Below are positions 6,863 through 27,843 of a DNA stretch of 34,082 nucleotides, piece after piece. Numbering within the stretch: position 1 is the stretch's first letter; every line of letters starts with the position of its first letter. The DNA is from a virus: positions 1-34,082 of IMG/VR virus record IMGVR_UViG_3300037584_002957; one strand, given 5' to 3'. The position numbers were made by a program, and so were the translations under genes. The notes beneath the pieces are model-generated. The model searched no databases and was not told the origin of the DNA. It saw nothing but the letters and a program-made list of their open reading frames with translations.

Positions 6863-6880
6863 CATTTTTTTGTTTATATA

Positions 6881-7550: not shown

Positions 7551-7551
7551 G

Positions 7552-7995: not shown

Positions 7996-8081
7996 TGTAC
8001 GTAACCACATCCACAATAAGTCACGAATGTATTATAGAACCATATAATGATTCTACATACACTTTACACTTTACTTCTTAG
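7995..8081 (+). CDS. Possible 28-aa microprotein at the convergence point
   Basis: ATG 7995 overlaps the previous TAA in a TAATG junction, the same arrangement as several true gene pairs in this operon. It encodes 28 residues (MYVTTSTISHECIIEPYND on) and ends at TAG 8081, 11 nt inside the opposing holin gene. It is too short to judge by composition and may be chance. If it is not coding, 7996-8070 is simply the convergent intergenic region, where only weak AT-rich inverted repeats (ATTATA/TATAAT near 8032-8050) are seen. Confidence 0.25.
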   Translation: MYVTTSTISHECIIEPYNDSTYTLHFTS

Positions 8082-8499
8082 CCTTTTCAATCGTACGTCC
8101 AGCGAAGTAAGCTCCAAAGGCAGTAAGCATAAGGATCTGAAGTAAATCTACATAAGAGTCCTTTACGTTAAAAGGTACGTTATCCATGCTGTCAATAAAC
8201 ATTGTCACCATAAACATGCTCATCAAAGCAATCAATGTTACAGGACGTATAAGCTTTGCTAGCTTTACATCGCTACCCATATCAGCTTTCCAACGCTCCG
8301 TTACATTTTCTTGAAACCTTACCTCAGCATCGATCTGAGCTTGAGCATCTACAGAGTCTACCTCTGGATCTTTATCGATAAGATTTTTTACTACACCCAA
8401 TCCACCGCTATCTGGTAGCAAGTCTCCTACTACATCCAAAACTTGTGGGGCTTTGCTAGCAAGCCAGCTGCCTAGCTTTGTCTCTTTTATCTTTTTCAT
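8071..8499 (-). CDS. Holin, GTA-type 3TM family (142 aa)
   Basis: The start at 8499 (MKKIKETKLGSW) overlaps the upstream endolysin stop as ATGA; a longer frame to 8532 is a shadow of the endolysin. A helical N-terminal segment with DVVGDLLPDSGGLG precedes the charged VRFQENVTERWKADM. Two clear membrane segments follow: LIRPVTLIALMSMFMVTMFI (83-102) and LLQILMLTAFGAYFAGRT (119-136). The R-P-x-T membrane start and the G-R-T-x-E-K end are typical of the 'holin of 3TMs' family of gene transfer agents and phages. It would permeabilise the inner membrane to release the endolysin encoded just upstream. Confidence 0.75.
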   Translation of the reverse strand: MKKIKETKLGSWLASKAPQVLDVVGDLLPDSGGLGVVKNLIDKDPEVDSVDAQAQIDAEVRFQENVTERWKADMGSDVKLAKLIRPVTLIALMSMFMVTMFIDSMDNVPFNVKDSYVDLLQILMLTAFGAYFAGRTIEKAKK

Positions 8500-8963
8500 A
8501 GTACTATATTTTCTTTTACCTCTTTGTAGCACGTATCTCCATCACCGTCTTTGTATGCTTCAAGGATTCTGTTTCTGTTGTCTTTATCTTTTAACGATAT
8601 GTGTATCCACGAGAAGTCAAACTCGTTGATCATCTGATCAAACTCAATCCCGTTTTGTACAATGTAATCGTATATAACTTGGTTTTTCATAACGCCTTTA
8701 TCCCAGAATTGGATGTCTACAGCTTGGCCTTTGCAGTGCTGCGACTTTGTACTACCGCCAATAGAGCGATTTAATTTAGGTGATCTGTATCCGCTAGTTA
8801 CACGGATAGGGCCTAACTGATCACGCATAGGCTGTAGTATCTCTGTTACAATACGTTGTAGATTTTTATTATGAGCTTCTGTAGGCTCATTTTTTATACC
8901 CTTTCTTTTTGCTGTGCTACTGCGTGTAAGCTCAGAGAGAGTAAAGTTTTTGCTTAGTCTCAT
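8496..8963 (-). CDS. Endolysin, peptidase M15 family (155 aa)
   Basis: A single-domain zinc peptidase of the M15_3 type, which cleaves peptidoglycan stem peptides. The N-terminal FTLSELTRSSTAKRKGI is the usual lead-in, followed by VTSGYRSPKLNRSIGG. The zinc ligands are His76 and Asp83 in SQHCKGQAVDIQ and His121 in WIHISLK. The length of 155 aa is normal for this enzyme type. It overlaps the giant virion protein gene upstream by 4 nt (ATGA) and the holin downstream by 4 nt, forming a coupled lysis cassette at the end of the late operon. The tail has DGDGDTCYKEV, resembling a calcium-binding loop. No signal peptide is present, consistent with holin-dependent release. Confidence 0.85.
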   Translation of the reverse strand: MRLSKNFTLSELTRSSTAKRKGIKNEPTEAHNKNLQRIVTEILQPMRDQLGPIRVTSGYRSPKLNRSIGGSTKSQHCKGQAVDIQFWDKGVMKNQVIYDYIVQNGIEFDQMINEFDFSWIHISLKDKDNRNRILEAYKDGDGDTCYKEVKENIVL

Positions 8964-11900
8964 TCTACTGTGTTTATATCCAACTCTATCAGCACGTTGT
9001 TAAACGTTGCTTCAGAGTTTAAAGCGATGTAATATAGTAAGAAATTGTTATACCTTTTGAAGTCATCAGGATTCATCTCACCTTCCTTACCTCTGATAAC
9101 AGCGGCTATTTCTTTTGGGGAGCGTCTAGATATTCTGCGCACCTCTGCAGAATATTTCTTGTAATCTTGAGGGAACATCATCTCAGTTACCTTGTCTCCT
9201 ACAGCTCCCTTTAATGCTGAATTAAATTTAGCCTGGCTCAACCCTCTAGCTAAAGTCACTGGATCTTCTTCAGCTTGCTTTTGTAGTATGCTAAGCAACC
9301 TTCCTGGTCCTGCGCCCTCTATACCCTTAATGGTAGCTTTGATTTCAGGATCGTTACCTATTGCAATCAGTATAGTTTCAAATGCTGCAAGCTGTTCCTC
9401 TGAAGAAAGCGCCCTGTCTTTAGGCATATCATCTAATGCTTTGGCTACATAGTCAAGTTCCTTAACTCCTACACCTGCCAGGTTAGCAAAAGATAAAAGC
9501 GTTCTTAATGTATTACTCAACATAAAGTCTGCTCGATCTTCTGGTCTAATAAACCTTTCACGCCCCGATCCTGTAGTATATAAAGTACCACCGTTAAGTG
9601 TAGGCTCAAGCATCTTTTCTAAGTCCATCACAAACTTACCGCCAGGTCCAAGCACACTAAGCGCTGTAAGTATAGCGTTTTGTACTGGCCCTTTTTTGTC
9701 TGTCACTCCTGTTCCGTAAGTTGTTACAGCATCACCGTATTGTTTAAACAATTCAAAAGCATCTTTATCTTCAAGTCCTGGAGCATCATAGTCCGAAGCG
9801 TTAAAGAACAAGTAGTAGTTAAAAAAGTCTTTTACTTTGTTATCGATAGCAGGTGTAGACGGAAGTGGAATTGCGTCTAATACTGTTTGTACAGCAGACT
9901 CCCTTATTGTTTTAGTATCTGTAAGTATTTCATCTAAGTTAGATTCATCGTCGTCATCTCCGAAGCCTTTAACAAATTCAGATATTACTGCTGTCATTAC
10001 CCTAGACATATACGCAAACACAAACAAAGAAGCTGTTGTTCCTGCCAATCCTCTTAATCCATCTTTTCTAGCTTGAGCGTTAGAAGGATCGATAATGCGA
10101 CCAACATCACCAGTAATCGATCTTTTTGTATTGATGGCAAAGCTTTGGAACGGGAGCATAGTCTGCACTAAAAATCTTACGAACGCACTTTTATTTTTAT
10201 AAACATTTGCTGCAAGTCTAGAGCTAGAAATGTTTTGGTCTTTGCTAACTATGTTTTCTGCATAAGCTATAGCCTCCATGTTTGGATTAGCAGCCTCTTG
10301 CTCCCAATTGATTTCTGAGATATCATTTACTGTACCCTCAGATAATAAGAAGTCTGCATAGAAAGCATAAAAAGAACTTATAGCAGCTACCTTGTCTGTC
10401 GTTGTTAGCGTCCACATAGACTTGTCTTGTAGCCAATCACGAGTTTTATCAAGTCGACTCTTATCAAACTCTACCCTACCTGTAAACGGATCTATATTAC
10501 CAGCCTTGTAGTCTCTTAAGAATAAAGTGGTGTGACGCAATAGCTCATATCTTCCGTCGTTTATTTTTACTTTAGGATCGCTAAGAACTTTAAGTTTCCC
10601 ATCTCTATCCTTACCTACAAAAGTTAAAGCCAGCATCTCCCCAAAAGTTCTTATGAGGTATGACTTACCTTGTAGTGTTTTAGTGTTCGCAAAAGCAGAC
10701 AGCATAACAGTAGATTGTTTAAAGAACTGTACAAACACACCACCAAAAGCATTTACTACAGCAGCAACCCTAAACATTTCAAATGGGTTACGTATCATCC
10801 TTCCTGCTACCTTTATATTTTTCTGGAATATAAACGGAACTTCTGATGCGTCAGCAACAAGGTAGTTGTCTATCATTTCTGACAGCTTAGCCTTTATGCT
10901 TTTAGGCATGAGGCCTTGCATAGCTTCAGTTTGGAAGGCATACTTCATAGCAAGCACATCCTCAAGCGACATCATAATAAACGAGTTCTGCCTTAGCGTT
11001 GCCTCATTTATCTTTAAAAAGTTTAGTCCTAAAACAGAATCTCCACCGACAGCTCTTGCTTCCCTTTCAAATGTAGCGCCAGGAGTCTTTGTGTAATTGC
11101 TGTTACCTGCACTACTCAGAGCAGTTATCAGTTGTCTACGTATCTCCATAACAGAATCTAACTGATCATCAAAGCCTTTCTTCCTAACCTTAAACGGAGT
11201 GTAGTTTTCTAATACCTCTAAGGTTTTTCCTAGATATCTTTCTGTGAACTGCTCAAAGCGTGGGCGCATAGACTCATGCATCTGAGATAAGAAGTCTACG
11301 ATTTCTACGATGTCTGTTCTTTCGTTTCTAACTTTATCTAGCAGCTCTTGCAGGTTATTAGTTTGCCCAAACAAATATTCACGAGCGTCTTTAAACTCTT
11401 GTATAGTTTCTGGATCGTATATGTCTGACTGCTCTACTTCGTACTCTTGAATCGTAGAGTCCATAGCGTCACGTAGATTCATAAACCACTCTGCTTCAGA
11501 TAGAGCCTCTGGCTTTTGATTAGCCATAGAGAATATCTGTGCTATAGCATTGGATAGATCTGACGTTATCTCACCACCCTTTTCTGTTATCTCATTGATC
11601 TTGTTTTGCAGGGCAGTGACTCTCTCCACGTGAGCCTGCTCATGCAGGTTTACGCTAGACATAACATCTTGGAAGCCTATCGCCACTAATATTTTAGCTA
11701 CGTCAACGTTACCTACTTTAAATACGTTACGTATAAATGAAGGAACGTTATCTGCAAAGCTTCCGTAAGATCTGTCTTTAGATCTAACACCTTTTGCTAC
11801 AAGAGCTTTAATATCACTAGCTAAAGATATCTTGCCTCTTACTATAGATGCTAAGTATCCAAGACCTATAGTAGAAGAGTTTACTAAGTAGTCATTGATC

Positions 11901-14900
11901 TTGTACTCCAAAGCTGCTAGATGTCTCATATCGAGCTGCACAAGCCTAGCCTTAAGTTCTGGTGCAGAAACGTTATCCATACTAAACAAACCTAGTATTG
12001 TTCTAAATGACTTGTCCTGCAGCAATTCCTCAAGGTTAGCCATAACTCTTGGGATGATGGCGTCAGATAAAATAAGTTCCTTTTTATCTTCTGCTAATTC
12101 AGCACTATCCTTAGCTAACTCATCAAGTACAATCTCTAGATCCTGCACGTTGTTTACATCAAGGCCTAGCTTCTTTGCTGTATCCTCTATCTTCTTACGT
12201 GTAGGGCTTAGTCTACTTCTCTGATACTTTTCTAGTATAGCTTTGTACTCCTCTTCAAATGTTGTTGACTCCCCAGCTTTCTTTGCCGCTTCAACAGCTT
12301 TTGTTGCCCTAGCTCTAAAGTTTGCATCCCTTTCTGTTTCTTCTATAGCTTTAAAGTTTGTAGCTATAGCCATCAGAGATTTTACTTCTTTAAGGTTAGA
12401 TTCTGTTACAACAAGATTACCCTCTTCGTCTTTGCTAAATCTAGCCCTCTTCATACTGTTGTTGACGTCGTTAACAAAGTCAGAGAACGACTGCATCTGA
12501 TCAACAGGTATAAGCGAAGCATCTATCCCAGCTACAATTCTTGCAAGAGATCTGTATGCTCCAAAGTCTTTTTGCCTAGACTTCCTAACCAAAGTTTTCT
12601 GCAACTTACGCATACTCTTAACAAGGTTAAGGTGATCGTCCATTGCTTTCCTTGCATCTTGCTTATCGAATATAGTAGCTAGTTTATCGAGGAATGAGTC
12701 TATAATATCGAGATCGTTTTCCGACAGCCTCTTTGCTGAAGTTCTTGCCATCTGCCCAGCTATAGCGAAGAAGCTCTTTAGCTGTGTAGCACTAAACTTA
12801 TTAGATGTCTTCCTATCTTTCATACGCTCTTTAATAAGAGCCTTAGCTTTCTTAAAGAACTCCTGCAAACTCTTAGACTTGTCCTTAAGTTCTTGCAGTT
12901 GCTTACGTAAATTTTTAGCCTCTGTAGATAGCTTACCCTCTCTACGTCTAGCTTGAGAAGCTATCTTAGCTGACTCTTTTCTAGCAGCTCTCCTCCCCCT
13001 AGCAAACTGAACAGCATTTTTGTATGTTTTTTCTGCTTGCTCTTTCTTCATACCGCTATCCTGAAGGATCTGTATAACTTCATCCTTCTTCATCTTAAAC
13101 AAGTTGACTTGCTTAGATGGTTTGAGAACAAGCTTTTTATTCTTACCCTTTCCCTCCATAACCAAGGTAAATCCTTTTTCTGTAAGCATATCAGCTACAG
13201 TCTCTACAATCTTCTGTGCGCTCTTACCTTCCTCTGCTGTATTATTATCTGCTTCAGCTTGATTTAAAGGACCTACCTCAATATTAAAACCTTCTCTTAT
13301 ATTAAAATCTTCTCTTAATCTTACATTAGTAACACCTTCCTCTTCAGCCTGAACTCTAAGACCTTTAGTAGTTGGGAATATAACAAGCTGATCTTCTCTG
13401 GCCACATCTTCTGTAGAGTATAAGTCTTTGTTTTTACCCCACATTAATCTTGAACTTACATTTCTTGCTTCAACTTCGCCAGCTAATCTTTCATACATAC
13501 GATGCATACTAAACTCCACAAGATCGTCTTGAGTTTTATTTTCAGACTCAACCCATAATGAAGTAAGGTCATCATAAAGCTGTAAATCGTTACCGCCAGA
13601 TTCTTGAAAAACATTTTCTGCCTCTTCGTTTATATTAAGATCATTATAAAATCTTTGTATGGCATTACCATAATTTGTTGGTTCAATCTCTGTACCTTCA
13701 AAATAATTTTTAACTTCCTCTACAAGATTATTTTTTTCTATATACTCAGCACTAAACAATTCTTTGATAGTACTAAAAGTACGTGGAGCTGTCTCTATTA
13801 TTGCTGCTAAAGCTTTGTATAATGCATTTTCAACTCTAAGTTTTTCAAGATTTTCTAAATCTTCTTTAGACATAAGCTCCTCAATATTTTCCATGATAAC
13901 CTCATAGTTACCACCAAAAGCAAACCCTTCCTCATACTGAATCCAATGCTGTATTTCGTGAACAAGATCTGATAAAACTCTATTATTATCCTTTACATTA
14001 ATTTCTATTTCAGAAGTGCCGTCTTCATGTTGAATAAACCACGAGTTTTCTCTACCCTCTTTTCTAACATCAATAGTTACTTTAAGATCTCTAAGCTCAG
14101 GATAATTTGTATACAGCTCAGGAGCATCGTAAATGTCAGACAGTTTATTGACTTCTTCACCATCAAATGTCTTAGTTATTTTACCGTCAGGTATTTCGTA
14201 CCTCCATTTGTTATCTGCACCCTTCTGCCATCCAGTTAATAGTTTTATTTTTTCAGGAGTAGCATTTTGAGACTCAAGATGTTTTGCTAAAAAGTACATG
14301 TCAGTAACATTTTCTTTTAAGTCTGCATTAGCGCCAATAATTTGTTTATTTACTTCTTGCTTTTCCTCATCATCAGTGGTTACTGTTGGTACATCTTTAA
14401 GACCTTCTGTAGCTTCAGCTAGCTTTTGCATGCCAGCGACACCAAAGCCTCCTGCCATAGTGCTAGTAACAGACTTAATAGCGTCAGCTACGTTCTTTAA
14501 CGTAGGGTTTTTAAACTCTGTACCAAACAATCTACCTACGTAGTTTTTTAGTGACGTTATAAGACCTTGCTTATACTCTGCTGACAAATCACCGTTAGTG
14601 ATGTCAGCAAGTATTTCCATAACAAGTTCCTCAGCAGCTTGTGGGTTTTTCTCTACGATTTGTGACAGTAATTTTCTAGCAAGCTCATCCGTTACAGCTA
14701 CTTCTGCTAAAGCCTGTTGCTCTTCAGTAAGATACTCACTAATAAAAGCTAAGTATCTTTTAGCGTTAGGTAAAGCCATAGCGAACTGGCGTGCAAGTTT
14801 ACGCAACGCTGTTCCTGCACCTTGCTTTTCGTCCATCTGCATAGCAGCAGAGTGGAAAGCTTCGTGGTATGCTGTGTTTGCTTTTAAAGCAGGTAAGAAA

Positions 14901-17900
14901 AGGTGGACTTGATTACCATCCTTTATATGAATACCTCTTGATACCTCCTGGCCTGTAGCTTTTTCAAAAGCTTTAGCTGTACCATGAATAAATACCTGAC
15001 CTCCCTGACCTACAACAGTTTGTATTACTTTCTTTACGTTTTGAAGTCCACGTATAATTTCTTCACGAGAAGAAAATTTAGTAGATATAATTTTACCAGC
15101 ATTGATAATTCTATCTATAACGCTGTTGGCATTTTCACCAGTAAGCTCTACTGAATTTCCTCTACTTACTCTCCCGTAATCTGTTATATCTGGATCTACT
15201 CTACCCACCTCATCTATAACAGCTTGAGTTTCAGGATCTTCTAAGTTTTGCTCTAGGAAAGATTGATTTTGTGAGTACTTACCCTCTATATTAAACTTAG
15301 CTTCAAAAGCTTGTTTTGTATCTGCCTGTAAAGCTGAAAGCTCTGCTTCGTACACAGCAACAGCATCCTCGTTGCCTTGGCTTCTTGCTTCCTCTAAGTT
15401 TTTTCTAGTATCAAAAGCTTTTCTTCTGTTTTTTCTAATACGAGTATTATACCCACTTATTTCTGTTAGATCTTCATCACTAACATTCATTAAAAAAGCC
15501 ATGTCCCTAGCTGACACCCTCCACATCTGATCCTGCGTTTCAAGCATTTCTTTTTTAATTTGCTTTCTCCTTTCAGGATTTTGTTCAGTTTGTAGTCTTT
15601 TCTGTAAAGCTTCATATTTATTTTCTAAAGATATTTGATCTTTAAAATTAAATTTTGAAGCTAAATAAGAGGGCGCTCTTACAATACCCATTTGTATATT
15701 TCCTGCTACAGTACCTAAAGCAAAAGCATCAAGAGTTTCTATATAGTTATATTTTAAATTAGTTTTTTCTATTTCTTTACCAGCTATTTGTCTTTGTAAA
15801 GAAGAAGACACATCATCAGCTATGCCTGGTGTGTCAAGTCTAGTTTGTAGATCAGAAATTTCTCTAGTCAAAGCTACACGGTGAGCATAATTAGTAAGGT
15901 GCTGACCTGCAAAAGAAACCAACCCTTCCTCTATACCTTCTTCAAAAAATTTAAATACGTTATTTTTTGTTGTTCTTCTCCATAATTTGTTAGCTGTCCC
16001 TACGAAGCCTTTTTTAGCTATGGTTTCTGCTGCTTCTCCTGCAATTTCTTTTCCGCCTATACCAAACATTTTTCGTATAGCATTAGCAGAAATTACCTCT
16101 TGCTTCATAAAAATTTTCTCAGAAAGATATTCAAAGCCTCCCATAAAAGAAGCATACATCATTTTTTCTGCGTGATTTAAATGCGGAACATCTTTTATAT
16201 CACTGTACGCATTACCTGCAGCTGACGTAGCAAAACTTTGTAAAGCTACTTCTGGATGGCCCATAACAGTGAGTCCTATTTGAACAGCTATTTGTGGTAC
16301 TACTTCACCAACTCCGTCTAAAAACAATGTTAGACCTGCTTCAGAATTACCAAAACCTTGTCCGAATATTCCTTTTTCTATTTCCTCTAAAGTCACACCT
16401 TTTCCCAGCAATCTAGATTGCGTCATAGAAGAAGAAATATCACCCCACGAAAGCACAGCTTGATCTATCTTACGTCCATATTTATCAAGTTGTCCTTCTA
16501 CAAACAAAGGGTTTCCCCTGCCTATATCAAGTCCATATGCATCGCTTTTTTCATATGCAGTTATATACTCTTCTGAGCTAGGTATAATCCCAAATGTCAT
16601 CATATTAGCAGCATCTGCTGCCCCAAAAAATAAGAAGCCTGCAAAACTGTCTAAATGTTTAAAGTAAGATCTGTCATCGAAATTCCTACCTATAGACTCA
16701 GCACTTCTTTTATACCTTTCAATAGCTGTGTCAGCGTTCATAAAGACTTCATCCATAGAAAACTGCATTACTAAATCAACAGCATTATATGCTCTCCTTT
16801 TTACACCAAACACTTCGTTAGACTCATTGTATAAAGAAATCATATCTGCTTCAGTTTGTCTAATTTCTTCAAACAATTGTGTTTGCTCCTCAACAGTTGT
16901 TGCTTTAGAAAAAGCATTTGCAAAATTTTCTGCGTATTGTCTAACTGTCTCTCTATTTTTTGCAGCTTGAACCACCTCTGCTTTAGCCGTATAAAAACCA
17001 GCTACTTTATAATATTCTTTTAAGCTTTCAGCCTCAGCATCAGCCTGAGCTTGCTCGTCATCAACATAGGTAACGGCACCTTTGGCGGTATATTCTTTCC
17101 ATTTTTCATACGTATTAATTACCTCTGGCATAATACCTTGAGCTACAGCTAACTCATCTTCGTTTGTTGGGATATATGATTTATTTACATTATCTAAGTG
17201 CGGCTCATAAAAGAAACCATCGTAATCTCCTTCAGGATCTAAGTTGTTTTTTTCAAAAAACTCATCATCCATATCTTCAGTAAAGACTTTTTTTATCTGT
17301 CCATCTTCAGCTAAGTACATTGTAATACGACTCATAGGAATCACACTTTCAGCATAATCGCTATACTCGCCTATATGAAACTCTTTGTTAATTATGTTTC
17401 TTTTTTTAGTTTCTACAGCTAAAGTAGAATTAGGATCATCCATAAGTAAGCCACTGCTTCTTATAACTCTTTCAAAATCTTCTACTGTAGTTGTAGCAAA
17501 AAAATCGTAGTCTCTGTAAGTTTCATAAATTTCGTTTGCAAAACTAGGAATGTCATCCGCACCTACAGGCAAACCAACAGACATGCCTCTATTAACAATC
17601 CATTTTTTAGATTCCGTAAAAATTTCGTAATCTAAATTGCCTTTGTTATTTTCTGGATCTTGTAGTATTTTTGATTGAATATCACGATGCACCGCATTGA
17701 TATCCTCCTCAGAATACATGGGAGTGCCTGCAAAACTATCTACTGTTTGCCTAGACATCTCATCGTAAACATCTACCCTCGTACCAAAGATGCTTTCAAA
17801 AAAATCACCCTGTAGTGCCTCTTGTCGTGACGCCAATCGTGACAGATCGCCCTCCCTTTCTGAAGGTGGCACAGTAGTGTCCGTTTGAACATCTAAACCT

Positions 17901-18157
17901 CCACCTTCTACACCATATCCTAATAGAGTAGAGTACTCTTCCGATAGCACTAAATCTTTTTTTTTTGGGGCTACGCCAGCTAAGAAAATAAAATCCCTTT
18001 CGTTACCCTCAAAGCCAGCTTCTTTAACAAGAGTAAACGCAGAGTCAAAATATGTCTGCTGTTGCATCATATCAAACAGTTGCTCTTGAGTACCTACGTA
18101 TCCAACGTCCTTTAGAATAGTAAATATATTGTTTTGATATTCTGTAAATCCGTTCAT
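8960..18157 (-). CDS. Giant internal virion / polyvalent ejection protein (3065 aa)
   Basis: One uninterrupted frame of 3065 codons. The N terminus has two copies of a mini-motif (FTILKDVGYVGTQEQLF, FTLVKEAGFEGNERDF). Two zinc-metallopeptidase-like motifs follow: YHEAFHSAAMQ (HExxH 1098-1102) and LVHEIQHWIQYEEG (1400-1404). Around 1680-1790 comes a long basic coiled coil (ARGRRAARKESAK, LRKQLQELKDKSKSL). The C-terminal third resembles 'large polyvalent protein-associated' domains (FRVAAVVNAFGGVFVQFFKQ, PFQSFAINTKRS), with a hydrophobic stretch TASLFVFAYMSRVMTAVI near 2705-2725. By position, between a lysin-bearing internal protein and the lysis genes, it corresponds to T7 gp16 but is over twice as long. 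It is probably packaged and injected with DNA. No single-subunit RNA polymerase motifs were recognised. Confidence 0.72.
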   Translation of the reverse strand: MNGFTEYQNNIFTILKDVGYVGTQEQLFDMMQQQTYFDSAFTLVKEAGFEGNERDFIFLAGVAPKKKDLVLSEEYSTLLGYGVEGGGLDVQTDTTVPPSEREGDLSRLASRQEALQGDFFESIFGTRVDVYDEMSRQTVDSFAGTPMYSEEDINAVHRDIQSKILQDPENNKGNLDYEIFTESKKWIVNRGMSVGLPVGADDIPSFANEIYETYRDYDFFATTTVEDFERVIRSSGLLMDDPNSTLAVETKKRNIINKEFHIGEYSDYAESVIPMSRITMYLAEDGQIKKVFTEDMDDEFFEKNNLDPEGDYDGFFYEPHLDNVNKSYIPTNEDELAVAQGIMPEVINTYEKWKEYTAKGAVTYVDDEQAQADAEAESLKEYYKVAGFYTAKAEVVQAAKNRETVRQYAENFANAFSKATTVEEQTQLFEEIRQTEADMISLYNESNEVFGVKRRAYNAVDLVMQFSMDEVFMNADTAIERYKRSAESIGRNFDDRSYFKHLDSFAGFLFFGAADAANMMTFGIIPSSEEYITAYEKSDAYGLDIGRGNPLFVEGQLDKYGRKIDQAVLSWGDISSSMTQSRLLGKGVTLEEIEKGIFGQGFGNSEAGLTLFLDGVGEVVPQIAVQIGLTVMGHPEVALQSFATSAAGNAYSDIKDVPHLNHAEKMMYASFMGGFEYLSEKIFMKQEVISANAIRKMFGIGGKEIAGEAAETIAKKGFVGTANKLWRRTTKNNVFKFFEEGIEEGLVSFAGQHLTNYAHRVALTREISDLQTRLDTPGIADDVSSSLQRQIAGKEIEKTNLKYNYIETLDAFALGTVAGNIQMGIVRAPSYLASKFNFKDQISLENKYEALQKRLQTEQNPERRKQIKKEMLETQDQMWRVSARDMAFLMNVSDEDLTEISGYNTRIRKNRRKAFDTRKNLEEARSQGNEDAVAVYEAELSALQADTKQAFEAKFNIEGKYSQNQSFLEQNLEDPETQAVIDEVGRVDPDITDYGRVSRGNSVELTGENANSVIDRIINAGKIISTKFSSREEIIRGLQNVKKVIQTVVGQGGQVFIHGTAKAFEKATGQEVSRGIHIKDGNQVHLFLPALKANTAYHEAFHSAAMQMDEKQGAGTALRKLARQFAMALPNAKRYLAFISEYLTEEQQALAEVAVTDELARKLLSQIVEKNPQAAEELVMEILADITNGDLSAEYKQGLITSLKNYVGRLFGTEFKNPTLKNVADAIKSVTSTMAGGFGVAGMQKLAEATEGLKDVPTVTTDDEEKQEVNKQIIGANADLKENVTDMYFLAKHLESQNATPEKIKLLTGWQKGADNKWRYEIPDGKITKTFDGEEVNKLSDIYDAPELYTNYPELRDLKVTIDVRKEGRENSWFIQHEDGTSEIEINVKDNNRVLSDLVHEIQHWIQYEEGFAFGGNYEVIMENIEELMSKEDLENLEKLRVENALYKALAAIIETAPRTFSTIKELFSAEYIEKNNLVEEVKNYFEGTEIEPTNYGNAIQRFYNDLNINEEAENVFQESGGNDLQLYDDLTSLWVESENKTQDDLVEFSMHRMYERLAGEVEARNVSSRLMWGKNKDLYSTEDVAREDQLVIFPTTKGLRVQAEEEGVTNVRLREDFNIREGFNIEVGPLNQAEADNNTAEEGKSAQKIVETVADMLTEKGFTLVMEGKGKNKKLVLKPSKQVNLFKMKKDEVIQILQDSGMKKEQAEKTYKNAVQFARGRRAARKESAKIASQARRREGKLSTEAKNLRKQLQELKDKSKSLQEFFKKAKALIKERMKDRKTSNKFSATQLKSFFAIAGQMARTSAKRLSENDLDIIDSFLDKLATIFDKQDARKAMDDHLNLVKSMRKLQKTLVRKSRQKDFGAYRSLARIVAGIDASLIPVDQMQSFSDFVNDVNNSMKRARFSKDEEGNLVVTESNLKEVKSLMAIATNFKAIEETERDANFRARATKAVEAAKKAGESTTFEEEYKAILEKYQRSRLSPTRKKIEDTAKKLGLDVNNVQDLEIVLDELAKDSAELAEDKKELILSDAIIPRVMANLEELLQDKSFRTILGLFSMDNVSAPELKARLVQLDMRHLAALEYKINDYLVNSSTIGLGYLASIVRGKISLASDIKALVAKGVRSKDRSYGSFADNVPSFIRNVFKVGNVDVAKILVAIGFQDVMSSVNLHEQAHVERVTALQNKINEITEKGGEITSDLSNAIAQIFSMANQKPEALSEAEWFMNLRDAMDSTIQEYEVEQSDIYDPETIQEFKDAREYLFGQTNNLQELLDKVRNERTDIVEIVDFLSQMHESMRPRFEQFTERYLGKTLEVLENYTPFKVRKKGFDDQLDSVMEIRRQLITALSSAGNSNYTKTPGATFEREARAVGGDSVLGLNFLKINEATLRQNSFIMMSLEDVLAMKYAFQTEAMQGLMPKSIKAKLSEMIDNYLVADASEVPFIFQKNIKVAGRMIRNPFEMFRVAAVVNAFGGVFVQFFKQSTVMLSAFANTKTLQGKSYLIRTFGEMLALTFVGKDRDGKLKVLSDPKVKINDGRYELLRHTTLFLRDYKAGNIDPFTGRVEFDKSRLDKTRDWLQDKSMWTLTTTDKVAAISSFYAFYADFLLSEGTVNDISEINWEQEAANPNMEAIAYAENIVSKDQNISSSRLAANVYKNKSAFVRFLVQTMLPFQSFAINTKRSITGDVGRIIDPSNAQARKDGLRGLAGTTASLFVFAYMSRVMTAVISEFVKGFGDDDDESNLDEILTDTKTIRESAVQTVLDAIPLPSTPAIDNKVKDFFNYYLFFNASDYDAPGLEDKDAFELFKQYGDAVTTYGTGVTDKKGPVQNAILTALSVLGPGGKFVMDLEKMLEPTLNGGTLYTTGSGRERFIRPEDRADFMLSNTLRTLLSFANLAGVGVKELDYVAKALDDMPKDRALSSEEQLAAFETILIAIGNDPEIKATIKGIEGAGPGRLLSILQKQAEEDPVTLARGLSQAKFNSALKGAVGDKVTEMMFPQDYKKYSAEVRRISRRSPKEIAAVIRGKEGEMNPDDFKRYNNFLLYYIALNSEATFNNVLIELDINTVE

Positions 18158-18167
18158 GCTTATTTAA

Positions 18168-21100
18168 TTATCTAGTTGATCCGCCTTCTGGAGCGAGAGC
18201 ACCTCGTTCTATAGCTAATATACTTATTGCTTCAGCTTCTGCTGGGTTTAGTAAAGGAGCGTTAACTCTTCTAATAGAAACAATTCCTGTGCGAACTCTA
18301 ACATTTCTAACCGTTTCTCCTTCGTCATTTACTATAAATTCTTTACCGTTTTTATATTGCATTTCAAATGGAGTTACTTTATAATCAACGGTAACTTTAT
18401 CACCCTGATTACCACCGAATAATAATACATCCCCATCCTCTGTCATACCAGCGTATAAACCGACGTGATTTCCTCCATACTTATTTTTTATTACAACAAT
18501 ATCTCCTACCCTAGCTCCTGCAGCTGTAATGATTTCATCATTATCATTTTGGATGTCTAGGTTAGGATTATCAAAAATATTATCTCCTATAGTTTGATAA
18601 GACCTAGCTCTAAGAACATTAAGTCTATCCCCCTCGCTAGGAAGATCTTGATCTGGATCAGCTTGCAACATTAAATCCCCAATGAAAATAGCGCACCATG
18701 CCATTACTGGATCAACTTTTAAGTATTCTTTTTTCTTGAAAGCCTTTAAAGAAGTATCTGTTTCTCTTTTATAATCTTCGTATTTAAGACGCTTTTCTTC
18801 TTCTAATTTATCTACAGAATCATCCCAATACCTTTGAGCTCCTGCTTCCGTTGAATACAAGGGGTTAGTAGGATCTGCCGTTGCTACATTTATAAACATT
18901 TCCTCAATATCCTCCATTATATCCCCTTCTGTTTCCCCTAAATTAAATACGTTAGTTAGAAGAGATAGAGCTTGCTTTTCTTTAGAATCATTAAAGTCTA
19001 CAAAATCACTTAATGGCGCTCCTCTATTAATTAGAGTAGCCGTGTTAGGCATTGCCGCACCGAACTCTGCTGTTGTTATTCCATACTTGTTTATGTCAAG
19101 AGCTTGTGCAGCTTCGTAGTGTTTAGTACCCTCTGCTGGCATTCCAAATCTTAAAATCATATTAGCTAAATCAAACTCATAAGTATCTGAACCTTCAACT
19201 AAAAAGTCTTTAGTATCATATAGCTCTTGGTTATCAGGATTAAATGGATTTGGTACAAGCCCCTGTAAATACCCTCCCATAAACTCAGTGATTTTTTCAT
19301 CAGACGCTGTTAACCCATCTGCAACTCGTGCTTTTTCTTCTTCAATAAGCTTTGCTTCAGCTTCAATTTCAGCTTGTTTTTCCGAAGCTTCTCTAGCAAC
19401 TTTCTCTGCTAAAGCCTCTTCAGTTTCTCGCTCAAACTGATCGATAACTTCCTGGCCCCCTAGCTCTTTCGTCATTTTAGCTATGTCCTTATCGTCTCTT
19501 TTCTTACGCCTTTTTTCTCTTCTTTTTTCTTTTTTTGTAGGCTCGTTATAAGAAATTATTTCAGCAAGAAGGCTTGGAGTTTCAACACCAGTATCTATAG
19601 GACCTACCTCCTTACCTGGTAGTTTTTCTATATCTTCCTTCTTTGCTCTTTCCATCAAGGACTGTGTTTGTCCTATGTCAGTTAACTCCACCATTTCGCC
19701 TAACACAGGATCAAACCTCATGTTAGGACTTACAGCAGTTTCTAAAACTTCTGAGTCTTCTTCCTCTACTGGAACCATTTTTCCTGAAACTGGATCATAC
19801 TTCATTTTCTGATCACCGTTCTTTTTTTTTTGATCACCGTTTGTTTCGTCGTCACCATTAGTGCCCCCAGTAATTAAACCTCCTTGCTCCATCTGAATTT
19901 TTCCGCCTTGAGCATTGCTGTTGCCACCACCGCCACTAGATCCACCAGCTCCAGCTCCAGCTCCAGCTCCAGCTCCAGCTCCTCCTCCAATTGCTTGGTT
20001 TATATTGTTTAAGGCTCCTTGATTTACTTGACTTTGACCTTGACCTTGAATAGACGATCCAAGCTGACTCATAGCTTGAGATAGTAGAGTGTTGTATGTA
20101 GAAGCTTTACCAGTTCTTTCTTGCCCCTCTAGCTGCTGCTGTATATTAGTAAAGGCATTAGGATGTGTTGAAGAGTTTACGTATATATCAGCCTCTTCTG
20201 TAAGAAGCGCTAACATATCTGTTTCAGTTTGATTAAGGTTTGTTATGGTTGATAATTTTTCTATAAGCTCTTGATTCTTAGCGATCTTATAACCTATTAC
20301 TTGTCCAGTAGATAAATCTATAATAGCTTTTTCTACTTCTATACCAACATTACTTACTGTTACATCTTTAAAGTTTCCTCCACTAGCTATACTACCTACA
20401 TTCATGTCTGGATATGCATTAGCTAAAGTAGGATCTGCAGCTGGTTGATCATCAGCATATGCTGTAAATATTGTTCTAGTAAGACCAGTAGGACCTGTCG
20501 TTACTCCCGATAGCATTTCTGCTACAGCGTCTTCATCTACCTGCGGGAACTGACCACGTATAGTATTATAGTACTCTCTTGCGTGAACAGTCTCTCCATT
20601 CCTAAAGTTATTTATTTCATCCATGGTTATACCTGGAGGAAGCTGTGTAGGCTGTCCACTTGCAGGATCAATAAACTGCATACTACCATTTTTAATACCT
20701 GCTTCTATGTCTTCTATACTTAGAGCATATATAGGAGTTCCGTCAGTTTCAAAGCCTGTAACTTTAGATATAGAAACACCATCACTGTTTCGTAAATTAA
20801 ACAGCTCTGGGTGCATGGTGTTGTTTATAGATTCTAAATCCCCAGACTGCAAGTCTCTATTGCCAGCGTACATAAACTTATACCCCTCCATAGAGGCGGC
20901 GTTCCACATAGTACGGTTGTTGTTAGCAAATACATTGTACTGATTTGCTACGTCTGCAGAAAAACCCTCCTCGTCAAAGCCCACAACAACAGGTTGAGAA
21001 ATGCCTGGTATAACTTGCGTTTCTTGATACCCTCCTTGCGAGGCGCTTAAGCCTTTTTTAGTAGCAAACTGCGAGTTATATACATCAGCTCCTACTGCAC

Positions 21101-21707
21101 TACCTAAAAACTTATAATCACCTACTATAGATCCTGTTTCGTAAAACAGATTGTCTGCATTAGATGCCGTTATTCCAGAGTTGAAGTAATCTTTTGCGTC
21201 AGCACCTTGCCCAACCATAACGACATTATTTTGCACAGTATATACAGGAGGCATAGAATACTCGTTAATAGCATTTATGTTAGACTCTAAAAGCCCTGAC
21301 TCAGCAAGCTCAGTGTTGCCTTTTATCTCAGCGGTTTTTTTAGCTATAAACTCCGTCCCAAACTTAGCGTCTTCAACAATGCTTAAGTATTGATTTTTAG
21401 CCTGTACAAAAGCAGCTTCGTTAGCACCGCTAGGATCTAACTCAAAATTTGTAGCAGCTTCCTGATAGATATCTAAAGCTAATTGTGCTGCACCCTGATA
21501 CTTTTGATTGATTTGTCCTGGTACAGCCTCTCCTGCTGCGCCCATTGGATTTAATGCCTTCATCTTAGCGTCCCTTTGCGCAGCTCTTTCTTGAGCTACA
21601 GCAAGGATGGGGTTGGCAAATTGCTCTGCAACATTTCTTCCGATAGCCCCGTAGTCTATGTTGGGGGCTAAAAACCCTGTTTTAAATCGTGTACCTTGTT
21701 CAGACAT
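18168..21707 (-). CDS. Internal virion protein with C-terminal cell-wall hydrolase (1179 aa)
   Basis: The C terminus (about 1000-1165) matches the TIGR02594/CHAP-like cysteine peptidase pattern: MAWCAIFIGDLM with Cys1005, VLRARSYQTIG, GDIVVIKNKYGGNHVGLYAG with His1081, LLFGGNQGDKVTV and SIRRV. Such domains cut peptidoglycan. The central part has a Gly-Ala tract (about 575-590), GGNSNAQGGKIQMEQGG, and two copies of the motif M-K/R-Y/F-DPV-x-G-x-MV. A Lys/Arg/Glu-rich helical stretch (KKEKRREKRRKKRDDKD, ETEEALAEKVAREASEK) follows. N-terminal 500 residues have internal-virion-like composition. Between the 287-aa and 3065-aa proteins it occupies the T7 gp15-like slot and would open the cell wall during DNA entry. 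It overlaps the preceding gene by 8 nt. Confidence 0.75.
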   Translation of the reverse strand: MSEQGTRFKTGFLAPNIDYGAIGRNVAEQFANPILAVAQERAAQRDAKMKALNPMGAAGEAVPGQINQKYQGAAQLALDIYQEAATNFELDPSGANEAAFVQAKNQYLSIVEDAKFGTEFIAKKTAEIKGNTELAESGLLESNINAINEYSMPPVYTVQNNVVMVGQGADAKDYFNSGITASNADNLFYETGSIVGDYKFLGSAVGADVYNSQFATKKGLSASQGGYQETQVIPGISQPVVVGFDEEGFSADVANQYNVFANNNRTMWNAASMEGYKFMYAGNRDLQSGDLESINNTMHPELFNLRNSDGVSISKVTGFETDGTPIYALSIEDIEAGIKNGSMQFIDPASGQPTQLPPGITMDEINNFRNGETVHAREYYNTIRGQFPQVDEDAVAEMLSGVTTGPTGLTRTIFTAYADDQPAADPTLANAYPDMNVGSIASGGNFKDVTVSNVGIEVEKAIIDLSTGQVIGYKIAKNQELIEKLSTITNLNQTETDMLALLTEEADIYVNSSTHPNAFTNIQQQLEGQERTGKASTYNTLLSQAMSQLGSSIQGQGQSQVNQGALNNINQAIGGGAGAGAGAGAGAGGSSGGGGNSNAQGGKIQMEQGGLITGGTNGDDETNGDQKKKNGDQKMKYDPVSGKMVPVEEEDSEVLETAVSPNMRFDPVLGEMVELTDIGQTQSLMERAKKEDIEKLPGKEVGPIDTGVETPSLLAEIISYNEPTKKEKRREKRRKKRDDKDIAKMTKELGGQEVIDQFERETEEALAEKVAREASEKQAEIEAEAKLIEEEKARVADGLTASDEKITEFMGGYLQGLVPNPFNPDNQELYDTKDFLVEGSDTYEFDLANMILRFGMPAEGTKHYEAAQALDINKYGITTAEFGAAMPNTATLINRGAPLSDFVDFNDSKEKQALSLLTNVFNLGETEGDIMEDIEEMFINVATADPTNPLYSTEAGAQRYWDDSVDKLEEEKRLKYEDYKRETDTSLKAFKKKEYLKVDPVMAWCAIFIGDLMLQADPDQDLPSEGDRLNVLRARSYQTIGDNIFDNPNLDIQNDNDEIITAAGARVGDIVVIKNKYGGNHVGLYAGMTEDGDVLLFGGNQGDKVTVDYKVTPFEMQYKNGKEFIVNDEGETVRNVRVRTGIVSIRRVNAPLLNPAEAEAISILAIERGALAPEGGSTR
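19945..19980 (-). repeat. Six perfect CCAGCT hexanucleotide repeats
   Basis: CCAGCT is repeated six times without a mismatch, and a degenerate CCTCCTCC tail follows. Read on the minus strand it encodes an alternating Gly-Ala tract inside the 1179-aa virion protein. As 6-nt units, copy-number change would keep the reading frame and alter only linker length. Confidence 0.9.
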
Positions 21708-22566: not shown

Positions 22567-25500
22567 TTATTTTTTATCTTGTGATGGAACTGATGAATTG
22601 TTATGTAAAGGAGAAGACTTGTACACCATGTTTACAGCAAACAACTCTACTGGTGTAGTAGCTGTATTTGTCAAAGCAACTTGAGCATGATAGTCTCTCA
22701 TTTTATCTCCGTTTATACTAGCCGTTGATACAGCCATAACTGTATCGCCTGCTGAAAGGCCAGAAACAGTACCACTAGCGGTAATCTGTTTTCTGCCAGA
22801 TACAGAAGAAATGTTAACACTAAGATTTGTTTCCGATGAACTTTCTAATTTAAACAAGGCGTCTGCAATTCCAAATGGCAAGTTACTAATTTTTGAAGTA
22901 AACGTTATGGTAGATCCACTAACAGAAGCAACTTGACCTAACACAACTTTATGAGATGTATTAGTAGTAGAGTTTGATGTAGCGTCTTTTTCTATTTGCC
23001 TGTAAAATAAACCTTCTCTTTGCTCAAACTCTGCATTAGCCATAGTGCCTGTAGTTTGATTTGTATTAGAAACTACAGCATCCCAAGAAAAGTTACCCTC
23101 TAAACTCATAGCGTCATATACCTTTACATCGCTAGGATTAGCTCTAGATACTAGCGTAAGTGTAGAATTGTTTTGAACTCCATAAAAGTTGTTTCTAGTT
23201 TCGTTAACATTGTGCCTGTGCATAACACCACCAAGAAAAGAGAAAAATCTATCATGAAGTTTCTCATACATTTCTGGTTGAAAAGAGTAAAACGTCAACC
23301 AAAACTCTTTTGTTGTAGAATAAGCTATCGTTTCTGCTGTTACATGACCGCTTGTCGATGTTAGCGTTAGGGATATAGAAGATCCGTCAGATTGTTTTGT
23401 TACAGATGACGGTAAATTAACACTACTGTCTTTTAAAGAAACTGTAGCTGTACCACCTAAACTGCTATTGCTTGTAGTAAGTTTTACCTTGATGCTACTT
23501 GTAGAACTTCTTAAAGCACTATCAACAACACAGCTTCCTCTATCAGCTAGTTTATCTAAAACAATAACGCCATTACCAGAGTGATCCCACTCTTGATCTT
23601 CTAATTGAAAGTTATCTGAAAGTTTTTCCCAAGTGCTGTTACCTCCATCTTTGAAAATAATATCGCATAAAGCATCATTAAAAGTAGTAGTGCTAGACTT
23701 AGAAACATTACTTAAAGTTCCTCCATTAACTGAAGGCACATCAATTCTACGTGTGTCTATGGCTTGTACAGTAACGATATACTCGTCATTGTCTGGATCT
23801 AATCCGCAAGGAATTTTTGCAGTTTGGCTTACAGAGTTTATGTCAGAAAATTTAGTTCCGAAATAAGAATCCATATTATTTGCGCTTATAAGTTTTATTC
23901 CTTTACCACTTATTTCTACAACAGCGCCCTTTGCGACATCGCAAAAGTATATTTTACCAAAACGCTCCACTACGCTTTCTGGCTGTTTTCCTGGACCGTA
24001 GTCACCACCATAAAAAGTTTCTGTACCCATAACATTCATGGATGTTACAAGCTGTCCTCCGCCAGCATCTTCAATAAGTGTACGCCCTATAGGTGTGCTA
24101 GAAACTTTGTTTTCTTGCATTACCATAAGAGTTTCACTGTTGTCTAGCATAAAGCATATATCCCCATCACGACTATTGTAATCTTTAAATGGAAATAAAG
24201 ATGGGTTGAAAGACGATAGGTTTAGTCTACTAGAATCTAAAGCAAACGCATCGCTATACGTAACAGAAGAAGTCCTTTGTATTTCAGCTTGCTCTGGCAT
24301 TTCTACATGTGGTCTTCCTATAGCAACAGCCTTAGAGTCGAAAAAATCGCTAACTGACTCGTCTTCAATGTAATACCTTTTATAAAACTGATCAGAAGGT
24401 TTAGCAGGGTTTGGTTGGTTGTTAATAACAGAATCTCTGACATTAGATAAAAGACTTCTTCTTCTAAAATATACATCCCCAAAAGTTAAAGTGATAGCCC
24501 CAAAAAACATTCCATTAGCACTGTTTAAAGGTATGCTTTGCCCTATTAAAGATGCCAATGGTTGAGGTAAAGTTGGTTGGAAATTGTATGTAAAACCTCC
24601 GCCCTGAACAGGAAAAACTTGAGTGATAAAAACATTTTGATTAGCTATTTGTTGAAAAAAAACTTGATCTCCTACATACAACCTCTGATTACTAAAAAAT
24701 GTGTTATCTGAATTTACAGTTAAAGGAAACGGATCAGGGCTTGTGTTAGGCCTATCTCCTGCGTGTGTTCTTACACCATTTACTTCTACTATATCAAATG
24801 CTTTTCCTACCTCATAAAAGATTTGATTTTCTACTTGAGACTTAGGTCTGTAAATTTCTACAATACAATCATTATGAAAAAAATCTGTGTTTGCTGCTAC
24901 AGAAGCAGCATTAAAATTATTGATTCCCTCATCTCGTATACCTAAATACCACCCTGTTCTTCTATAATTATTTTCGTTATCTAAAACACTATTTGAGGAC
25001 AAACTTATTGGGTTCGTTTCATCATCAGGAAAGTACTTGTAAAAGCTTATAGGAAACTCTGCTAGCGGTCTAATTATATTTAGATTACTATCTAAGCATT
25101 GCAAAATACGCAACATATCGCCCTCTTTATATTCATAAGAAAGCAACGATCCTTTTGATTCTTTATGAGAATTATTTTTCCCCTCCAAAGCCCTCATAGA
25201 AAGATAAATTGTTCCTTGAGTAGCATTAGCTAAAGCAGATTCTATAGGCCTAGTAAGAGGAGCTGAATCCCCTGCGCCAGTTGGGGCTAATGGATCAGAG
25301 TATGTTTCTGTCTTACCTAAAGCCGCCTCCATAATCGATGTATGAAGTATTTTTTCATACGTTGTATTTTTCGAATATACAGGCGCCCATTTGCTAGCCC
25401 AGTAAGGAGGATCGTGAAGTACTTTTATATCTATATGTGTCTTCCCGTTATTGCCAAACCTGTCTTCTTTTCCAAAATGTGATACACTAACGCTATTTAA

Positions 25501-27843
25501 TTTCTGAACTGCTGACGGTCTATTTTTTTCATCATAGTAAACTATCCCAAATTCATGATCTGCACCCGCTTTAAATGAAGGTCCTGAAATACCGTCTTCT
25601 GTAACATAATCTATACTAGAAAATGCTACACTAAAACCTTCATATCCTGTTACTATACCATTAGAAAAACTATCTATTAGGGTATGCGAACCGTTATTTG
25701 AAGTAAAGTTTTGACTTCCTATATTGATTGGAACAAACTGAAGATTATCATAAAATTGAGCTAGTGGCTCTGCTGTTTGTAAAATAGCATCTGAATCAAA
25801 AGCTGTTTCTGCAAATCCAAAACTAAAAAACTCAAGTAACGCCTGACCAAAAGTTTGATCGTCCTCAACAGCCGATACAGAATAGATACTCCCTGGTAAA
25901 CTACAGCTGTTAATAGCAAGATTACTTTCAACAACTCTTATGTGAAATCTAACTTTATCAACCCCGTTATCATTAACATAATGTCCTTGATAAAGCTCAA
26001 ATGTAATAGGGCCATCTATATTTAAGTGTACGGATTGAAGCAACAGATTTGTGAAATTAACTATCCCTCCTTGATTGACTGTTGATGATATAGAAATTTC
26101 TGGTGGTAAATCATCCGAAGTACCCCGTGCATTTATTCCTTCACCTTCAAAAAGCGCAATACCCGTAAGACCATTTAAAGAGTTTGCTATTTTGTTAGCA
26201 AAATTTTCTATTGTACTATTTCCTCCTCCAGATGCACTTGATGTAAGGAAAGATACTGTTTCAAAATTTATACCGCCTTGAGGCGTTAAGCTGTTTATGC
26301 AGCGATCTGGGCTTGAAGAGCTTCCTTGATCGTAACTTGTTAAAAAATTAAATTCAAATGAGCTTGGTAAATTATTATACCCACTTGGAGTTTCAATAAA
26401 TCCTGGATCATTACCATCTTCATTAACAAAATTTGCTATGGCAGAAAAACCTCCAGAGTCGTTACTAAACAAACCCATAGCTAAAGAATCACAAATGACA
26501 CCTATACTACAAACAAAATTTCCTGCTGGTATAACAGCTAAATCAGAAAATTCACTTATGTCTATATCAACTGTAACTGGAGCGGTTGTAGGTGCAGAAG
26601 ATGTAAGAGCGCTATTGTTTGCATTTGGCGTTGATAGAAATTGAGAAAAAGTATTAGAGGGAAATGATAAATTGCTTTGAGCAGTAAGACCTTTAAAATA
26701 CTTATATACCGTATCTTCATCTATAGTACCGTCAGCCCCAAAACTTTCTAAAAGCAAGGCTTCATCTGCAGTGATATTAAAGTCTTGTGGTGTAGTATTA
26801 TACAAAGGGTTAATATCAACTCTAGCTTCTATGTTATCAAAGCCCTCTAAGTAATTGCCATAAAATAATCTGTTGTTACTTATTGCTTGTGCAAAAGCTC
26901 TTCTAGGCACAGAATCAAATAATTTATTAGCTTCCTGATCAGGCAAAAAAGTGTATATCCCATCATTAGTAAAGTCTATAGTTTGAGTACCAACTATATG
27001 ATCTACCTCATCAATTCTAAAAAATGCACCCTCATTATTACGTCTAGCAAAAACTCTAATTTTTTCTATTGGAGCTTGTAATCCAGTAAGAGTAAGTCTT
27101 AGTGTATTATTTTGATTTTCAAAAAAGTTTTGCGTTGTAATGTTGTGAGCCATGTTAGTTCTACTAACAGTAAGCTCCGAGTATTGTGATAAAGCACTTA
27201 CCTCTCCGTCATCATACACATATTGATATGCAAACTGAAAGCAGTTGTTTTTTAAAGCGTTAGAAGAAATACCTTCTATACTTAAAAACTCAAACGTAAT
27301 AGGAGTTTGCGGAGCAGCCTTACATACAGTCAAATAATTGTCTGCTGTAGCAGTATTATCTACACCTGCATCATAGTTGTTTTCTAAAGCTTTGGTAGCA
27401 TTTATCTTTCGTGGTTCGTTTCTGTTATCTGTAAAATACAGAAGGTGCTCCCCAAACTGATTTATAACCACATCAGCTTTAATAAAACTACTCAAAGAAA
27501 AGTTTAACGCACTATTTTCATATATCTTGATGTATGTATTTGTAGCATGGCTATAATGATATATACCATGATTGCCGTTTGAGTTGTATAAAAAAAAGTA
27601 TATGCATTTACCAGCTTCTGAAGCAACTGATCCTAACACACTATTCGTGCCAGTAGGATATGCTTCGCTAAGTCCCGAAGCTGCTATAGCAGTGTTACCA
27701 AGAACGTTTTTTAATATACCTTGATCTCCATCAGACTCATGAGATACACGCACATTAAGTGCGTCTGACATTTCTATACCTTTAATAAGCCTAGCATCCT
27801 CATCTTTATTGAGGTACTGCGGTATGAGTTTATCAATAGCCAT
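22567..27843 (-). CDS. Tail nozzle / P22 gp10-like stabilisation protein, very large (1758 aa)
   Basis: The N terminus (MAIDKLIPQYLNKDEDARL, DALNVRVSHESDGDQGILKN) resembles stabilisation or tail tubular B proteins of P22- and crAss-like podoviruses, which start with a beta strand entering a propeller-like fold. Strands of propeller type recur (YFFLYNSNGNHGIYHYSH, FGEHLLYFTDNRNEPRKIN, FGKIYFCDVAKGAVVEI). The protein is Ser/Asn/Thr rich and beta-rich, as for tail proteins. The usual family members are about 500-1000 aa, so this is oversize and may include receptor-binding or added beta domains in the C-terminal half. It shares a TAATG junction with the upstream ring-protein gene and is followed by the ejection proteins, as expected of gp12 in T7 order. 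Confidence 0.65.
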   Translation of the reverse strand: MAIDKLIPQYLNKDEDARLIKGIEMSDALNVRVSHESDGDQGILKNVLGNTAIAASGLSEAYPTGTNSVLGSVASEAGKCIYFFLYNSNGNHGIYHYSHATNTYIKIYENSALNFSLSSFIKADVVINQFGEHLLYFTDNRNEPRKINATKALENNYDAGVDNTATADNYLTVCKAAPQTPITFEFLSIEGISSNALKNNCFQFAYQYVYDDGEVSALSQYSELTVSRTNMAHNITTQNFFENQNNTLRLTLTGLQAPIEKIRVFARRNNEGAFFRIDEVDHIVGTQTIDFTNDGIYTFLPDQEANKLFDSVPRRAFAQAISNNRLFYGNYLEGFDNIEARVDINPLYNTTPQDFNITADEALLLESFGADGTIDEDTVYKYFKGLTAQSNLSFPSNTFSQFLSTPNANNSALTSSAPTTAPVTVDIDISEFSDLAVIPAGNFVCSIGVICDSLAMGLFSNDSGGFSAIANFVNEDGNDPGFIETPSGYNNLPSSFEFNFLTSYDQGSSSSPDRCINSLTPQGGINFETVSFLTSSASGGGNSTIENFANKIANSLNGLTGIALFEGEGINARGTSDDLPPEISISSTVNQGGIVNFTNLLLQSVHLNIDGPITFELYQGHYVNDNGVDKVRFHIRVVESNLAINSCSLPGSIYSVSAVEDDQTFGQALLEFFSFGFAETAFDSDAILQTAEPLAQFYDNLQFVPINIGSQNFTSNNGSHTLIDSFSNGIVTGYEGFSVAFSSIDYVTEDGISGPSFKAGADHEFGIVYYDEKNRPSAVQKLNSVSVSHFGKEDRFGNNGKTHIDIKVLHDPPYWASKWAPVYSKNTTYEKILHTSIMEAALGKTETYSDPLAPTGAGDSAPLTRPIESALANATQGTIYLSMRALEGKNNSHKESKGSLLSYEYKEGDMLRILQCLDSNLNIIRPLAEFPISFYKYFPDDETNPISLSSNSVLDNENNYRRTGWYLGIRDEGINNFNAASVAANTDFFHNDCIVEIYRPKSQVENQIFYEVGKAFDIVEVNGVRTHAGDRPNTSPDPFPLTVNSDNTFFSNQRLYVGDQVFFQQIANQNVFITQVFPVQGGGFTYNFQPTLPQPLASLIGQSIPLNSANGMFFGAITLTFGDVYFRRRSLLSNVRDSVINNQPNPAKPSDQFYKRYYIEDESVSDFFDSKAVAIGRPHVEMPEQAEIQRTSSVTYSDAFALDSSRLNLSSFNPSLFPFKDYNSRDGDICFMLDNSETLMVMQENKVSSTPIGRTLIEDAGGGQLVTSMNVMGTETFYGGDYGPGKQPESVVERFGKIYFCDVAKGAVVEISGKGIKLISANNMDSYFGTKFSDINSVSQTAKIPCGLDPDNDEYIVTVQAIDTRRIDVPSVNGGTLSNVSKSSTTTFNDALCDIIFKDGGNSTWEKLSDNFQLEDQEWDHSGNGVIVLDKLADRGSCVVDSALRSSTSSIKVKLTTSNSSLGGTATVSLKDSSVNLPSSVTKQSDGSSISLTLTSTSGHVTAETIAYSTTKEFWLTFYSFQPEMYEKLHDRFFSFLGGVMHRHNVNETRNNFYGVQNNSTLTLVSRANPSDVKVYDAMSLEGNFSWDAVVSNTNQTTGTMANAEFEQREGLFYRQIEKDATSNSTTNTSHKVVLGQVASVSGSTITFTSKISNLPFGIADALFKLESSSETNLSVNISSVSGRKQITASGTVSGLSAGDTVMAVSTASINGDKMRDYHAQVALTNTATTPVELFAVNMVYKSSPLHNNSSVPSQDKK

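Follow-up and report, generated by a model that had tools for sequence, protein, structure and literature searches.

A linear virus record of 34,082 bases, from a marine bacterial virus and considered here over its whole length (the window), contains a gene for a protein of 3065 amino acids that carries two separate HExxH motifs. The questions raised by the gene are whether the motifs mark zinc metallopeptidases, whether the two play the same part, and whether the protein enters the host along with the DNA, as had been proposed in an earlier reading made from the letters without database searches (the sequence-only reading). The gene and the two large neighbors that give it its setting are:

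8960..18157, minus strand: predicted giant virion (cargo) protein, 3065 aa, about 345 kDa, recognized as one open frame with relatives in IMG/VR
18168..21707, minus strand: 1179-aa protein of the virion region, upstream of the giant gene, matching NlpC/P60 weakly near the C terminus
22567..27843, minus strand: crAss-type muzzle protein, 1758 aa (PF25729, crAss_MUZ_C, E 1.2e-11; phrog_14478, E 1.8e-104)

The frame of 3065 codons noted in the sequence-only reading is borne out, uninterrupted from ATG to stop (18157..8960), and lies on the minus strand, a detail that reading did not give. Both motifs are found where it placed them, HEAFH at residues 1098-1102 and HEIQH at residues 1400-1404. Compared with close relatives, the frame has a dN well below dS. 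From the composition of the protein, 0.018 HExxH motifs would be expected in 3065 residues, and none of 5000 shuffles gave two in one protein, so the motifs, taken as a set, are not due to chance. T7 gp16 has 1318 aa, and the earlier remark that the protein is more than twice that size is correct, yet 3065 aa is not exceptional: the syntenic gp18 of Flavobacterium phage elemoF has 3694 aa, and a protein of Pseudomonas phage 8P, which carries the same HExxH module as the one described below, has 5145 aa. No relatives were found among cellular genome contigs. Residues 7-147 give a match to M32 carboxypeptidase (E 5.7e-4), which lies outside the regions of HEAFH and HEIQH and has no HExxH here.

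The gene order runs from the muzzle/nozzle-like gene through a 287-aa gene and the 1179-aa gene to the giant gene, and in that respect the comparison with the position of T7 gp16 was apt. By its neighbors and by synteny, the giant gene is encoded among virion structural genes, and it follows a crAss-type muzzle gene, as do the genes for crassvirus cargo proteins. The likeness to T7 gp16 is one of position, behind a nozzle-type gene and the internal proteins. The match to a cell-wall enzyme (PF00877, E 1.1e-3, below the cut-off) is found here in the 1179-aa protein encoded upstream. On its downstream side, the giant gene is immediately followed by a gene for a Peptidase M15 protein (8496-8963, minus strand; PF08291, E 1.4e-19), likely an endolysin. 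The major-capsid-like protein is about 29% identical to its counterparts in Flavobacterium elemo, Cellulophaga and Maribacter phages, and at the same position these phages and a Tenacibaculum phage encode other giant proteins: besides elemoF gp18 (3694 aa), those of Gundel (2482 aa), Panino (1829 aa) and phi38:1 (1691 aa). The Gundel protein (Gundel_74; L021, 26539-33987) has a weak GNAT match and an HEFGH, and that of Panino (Panino_69; L016, 31774-37263) resembles pieces of phi46:3 gp120 and gp121 fused together. The phage is probably a podovirus with a crAss-type muzzle and a host among the Bacteroidota.

The first motif belongs to a domain found throughout the family:

14423..15145, minus strand: constant zincin-like domain, residues ~1005-1245, from an 18-sequence alignment and an AlphaFold (AF2) model
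14852..14866, minus strand: HEAFH, from the motif and the alignment
14615..14629, minus strand: candidate third zinc ligand (E1177 and E1181), unchanged across the 18 aligned sequences, both residues on model helix 152-168

Every relative that covers the region has an HExxH at this position: HEAFH in close relatives and in those 47% identical, HEGYH, HEGFH or HEQHH in those 33-38% identical, and HEIFH in elemoF gp18. Among the residues invariant in the alignment are H1098, E1099, H1102, E1177 and E1181. The model (pTM 0.73) has a helix followed by three strands; next comes the HEAFH helix, and further on a helix with E1177/E1181, so that the HExxH helix follows a three-stranded sheet and is itself followed by a glutamate helix, as in zincins; the same order of elements has been described for the metallopeptidases of polyvalent proteins (Iyer et al. 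2017, PMC5512222). A Foldseek search with the model of this domain against solved structures gave nothing below E 0.25, with lethal factor at rank 14, and the fold assignment therefore rests on conservation and topology. These point to a likely zinc metallopeptidase domain, which is a constant core part of the protein.

The second motif lies in a module of a different kind, and a comparison of profiles detected no close relationship between the two domains:

13281..14364, minus strand: variable payload slot with a 1084-nt LPD23 + metallopeptidase cassette, from the comparison of five relatives and GC content
14177..14287, minus strand: LPD23 (PF18838), residues 1291-1327, E 3.4e-9, 36.8 bits against a cut-off of 27
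13946..13960, minus strand: HEIQH, from the motif and alignments of homologues
13463..13480, minus strand: GEVEAR, residues 1560-1565, whose E1563 is a candidate for the third zinc ligand, kept in nearly all homologues

In alignments of dozens of LPD23-metallopeptidase homologues, nearly all rows keep both the HExxH and the glutamate of GEVEAR (the column of E1563 is mostly E), giving the HExxH and downstream conserved glutamate typical of zincins. The catalytic and candidate ligand residues stay invariant even where identity has fallen to roughly 20-30%. A profile search found the module in at least 470 IMG/VR viral contigs. Among the 80 loci retained, it occurs in 45 frames of at least 2000 aa, 36 of which have two or more HExxH motifs, so the architecture with two HExxH motifs is common, and between one and five metallopeptidases per polyvalent protein have been reported (PMC5512222). 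A model of the module found no significant match among solved structures, lethal factor chains occupying ranks 1-5 at E 0.15 or worse, and the surroundings of GEVEAR are modeled with low confidence. The combined model of both zincin domains, of moderate quality (mean pLDDT 67.8) and built on an alignment in which four rows (L125-L128) wrongly set HEAFH under HEIQH, matched 14 models of viral structures at E <= 1e-3, and those with informative names are mostly large polyvalent proteins. A match of the LPD23 profile to PDB 8fg6 was rejected, as the papers naming that entry concern designed peptide-binding proteins. The LPD23-HEIQH-GEVEAR module, judged by its pattern of conservation, likely contains a second zincin. 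The sequence-only reading suggested metallopeptidases for both motifs. Conservation supports this well, with a glutamate as candidate third ligand at either motif, and for HEAFH so does the order of elements in the model, but no solved structure matches significantly.

That reading also treated the two motifs alike, and here it needs correction, for HEAFH belongs to the constant core and HEIQH to an exchangeable insert that is absent from all the near-identical relatives. The 1084 nt of the slot are replaced by 46 nt in relatives L002, L004, L005 and L008 and by 772 nt in L003. The edges agree within three bases across the five, and since the differences in length (1038 and 726) are multiples of three, the frame is kept. 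The flanking DNA segments are 83-96% identical across the five relatives, and L004 is 95-96% identical to the window on both sides. GC content is 32.8% in the slot and 38.4% in the rest of the frame. LPD23 was not found elsewhere in the contigs of L002, L003, L004 and L008, and an exact-peptide scan of IMG/VR found no near copy of this particular cassette.

What the slot holds differs from phage to phage, over a range of about 26 to about 1170 aa, and the protein on both sides remains alignable. The relatives with an empty slot have only a short acidic linker. The insert of L003 has an EGNHR motif and weak, sub-threshold matches to ParB-like PHROGs, which hint at a ParB-like domain; no relatives of the insert were found in phages, viral contigs, plasmids or the PDB. 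L122 and L123 have about 350 unrelated residues, L124 has LPD23-zincin and about 400 more residues, and L142 has LPD23-zincin and DUF7178. The slot of L143 resembles an ART-PolyVal (ADP-ribosyltransferase) domain at 28.7 bits, against a cut-off of 31.2; this slot (5039-8506) also matches phrog_3170 (E 2e-18), a family of unknown function. The roughly 1000 residues in L138, L139, L140 and L145 gave no confident family match and may be a large uncharacterized payload. From these alignments, the payload seems to be exchanged within an otherwise conserved protein. Mosaicism has been reported in other polyvalent proteins (PMC5512222), which means that exchange as such is no new idea, and polyvalent proteins with two HExxH motifs are likewise known; what is new is a payload slot at a fixed place whose exchange can be seen among phages that are otherwise near-identical, and the literature searched yielded no description of it.

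Beyond the slot, the protein offers fewer clues:

8978..13240, minus strand: C-terminal half of about 1430 aa, conserved at 33-96% identity among IMG/VR relatives
12788..13060, minus strand: basic, coiled-coil-like segment, residues ~1700-1790, from net charge and, for the coiled coil, by eye
11630..11644, minus strand: HEQAH, residues 2172-2176, judged non-zincin, not conserved in relatives

The C-terminal half has no relative in Pfam, NCBIfam, PHROGs or the sequenced phages of INPHARED. The basic coiled coil described earlier holds as to its basic part (residues 1701-1800 have a net charge of +20), and its coiled coil is a judgment by eye. There are hydrophobic segments late in the protein, as had been said, at 2461-2479 (KD 1.58) and 2711-2729 (KD 1.54), but they are modest, and both fall short of a confident transmembrane call. 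HEQAH is an additional HExxH that the sequence-only reading missed. I rejected it as a third zincin: L122 and L123 have FEQRH in its place, and L138, L139, L142, L143 and L145 have no HExxH there.

The slot is not the sole mosaic site in the region, and it stands out among them because its alternatives are non-homologous domains or nothing. In the N-terminal part of the protein, residues ~122-610 (16330-17796, minus strand) fall into two allele classes, the window and L004 in one and L002, L003, L005, L008 and L009 in the other; the classes are about 35-57% identical, and the protein beyond residue 900 is mostly more than 90% identical. The middle of the muzzle protein (24349-26830, minus strand) is poorly conserved with L002 and L004 and is common to L003 and L008, possibly a diversification of surface contacts. 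The 1179-aa protein swaps its C-terminal cell-wall enzyme (~18245-18904, minus strand), with matches below the cut-off: the window, L002, L004 and probably L008 have an NlpC/P60-like end, L003 (7439-9994) and L005 a GH19-like one (RGRGYLQITGRANY).

Taken together, these results make it probable that the giant protein is a phage-type polyvalent cargo protein, made up of a constant zincin, a payload slot and a conserved C-terminal half, stored in the virion and ejected with or before the DNA. Unrelated domains (the constant zincin, LPD23 with the second zincin, and the C-terminal half) share one polypeptide, and one of them, LPD23, is a polyvalent-associated domain well identified by its score. 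The earlier designation as a polyvalent protein is thus supported, both by LPD23 (PF18838) and by the Foldseek matches to models named large polyvalent protein. The protein resembles the phage-type polyvalent proteins of Iyer et al. (2017, PMC5512222) in being a giant multidomain late protein with zincins, LPD23 and alternatives of ART and ParB type; it differs from them in that for the rest of it, the C-terminal half of 1430 aa included, no matching family was found in Pfam, NCBIfam or PHROGs, and in that the exchange takes place at one fixed slot between near-identical phages. Pseudomonas H66 gp60 and the F116-like giants (PLxRFG) have the same LPD23-HE[LI]QH-GEVEAR module, about 25-34% identical, but the module is all that they have in common with it. 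With elemoF gp18, a structural protein, the common ground is synteny and a homologous HEIFH domain (E 1e-5); no LPD23 was found in gp18, which has DUF3293, and the rest does not align.

The route into the cell is suggested by analogy. In the crassvirus PhicrAss001, the muzzle gene is followed by genes for cargo proteins, which mass spectrometry detects in virions and which capsid and tail both store (Bayfield et al. 2023, PMC10172136). Those cargo proteins, gp45-gp50, resemble the giant protein in following the muzzle gene and in being very large, and they are ejected. No sequence match to them was found, and the crassvirus giants are associated with RNA polymerase; the protein of the window carries zincins. 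On the basis of its position after the muzzle and of this precedent, the giant protein is probably packaged in the virion; the same considerations, together with the annotation of H66 gp60 as 'verified by mass spectrometry as part ...', suggest that it is ejected into the host. Once there, the slot domain would act as a payload, and the C-terminal half would serve packaging, ejection or passage through the membrane. The anti-defense action raised in the sequence-only reading is conjectural. Zincin metallopeptidases are the commonest domains of polyvalent proteins and have been proposed to process them (PMC5512222). The constant zincin, if catalytic as predicted, would trim the polypeptide or release the payload. 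I prefer processing as its role, given that it accompanies every kind of slot content; since phages with an empty slot keep it too, it may serve some other step, for example trimming during assembly or entry.

It is conceivable that neither zincin processes phage protein and that both are effectors cutting host proteins, of defense or of metabolism. Iyer et al. allow such a role (PMC5512222), and the exchangeable place of the second zincin, beside ParB-like and ART-like alternatives, fits a host-directed effector. The first zincin, however, is present in every covering relative with any slot content or none, which fits housekeeping rather than a changing target, and I regard the proposal as unlikely. 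Less likely still, the zincin-like domains may be non-catalytic structural remnants, serving only as pieces to be unfolded and passed through the tail; partial unfolding on ejection has been proposed for crassvirus cargo (PMC10172136). Remnants of that sort should have lost their catalytic residues, as happened at the HEQAH site, whereas those of both domains are invariant over great divergence and the frame is under the constraint evident from dN and dS.

There is little to recommend the idea that the giant protein is a virion RNA polymerase subunit of crassvirus type, or a tape measure, rather than a carrier of polyvalent effectors. The crassvirus giants gp47 and gp50 are indeed RNA-polymerase associated, and a C-terminal half with no known relative leaves room for such a function, but searches of Pfam, NCBIfam and PHROGs gave no RNA polymerase match, the presence of a T7-like nozzle/muzzle gene speaks against the kind of long tail that would require a tape measure, and domains of polyvalent proteins occupy the middle of the protein. 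That the slot differs only because this contig is misassembled or chimeric, as the lack of a near copy of the exact cassette might suggest, is hardly credible given a frame open for 3065 codons across the slot, modules of this kind in the corresponding place in the independent contigs of L124 and L142, and another insert at the same edges in L003.

Returning to the polyvalent cargo protein, I would tentatively go further and propose that, in this lineage with crAss-type muzzles, the giant protein is a carrier of exchangeable payloads, from which the constant zincin would release the effector in the slot and in which recombination at the edges would swap one payload for another. The effectors would then possibly include a second protease, a ParB-like nuclease, an ADP-ribosyltransferase and others, in a manner that may be likened to the swapping of tips in polymorphic toxins. 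Polyvalent proteins are known mainly from catalogues of domains. Phages that are 95-96% identical around the slot and differ in one domain amount to near-isogenic natural pairs, and if isolates were found, the action of the payload and its release by the constant zincin would be directly testable.
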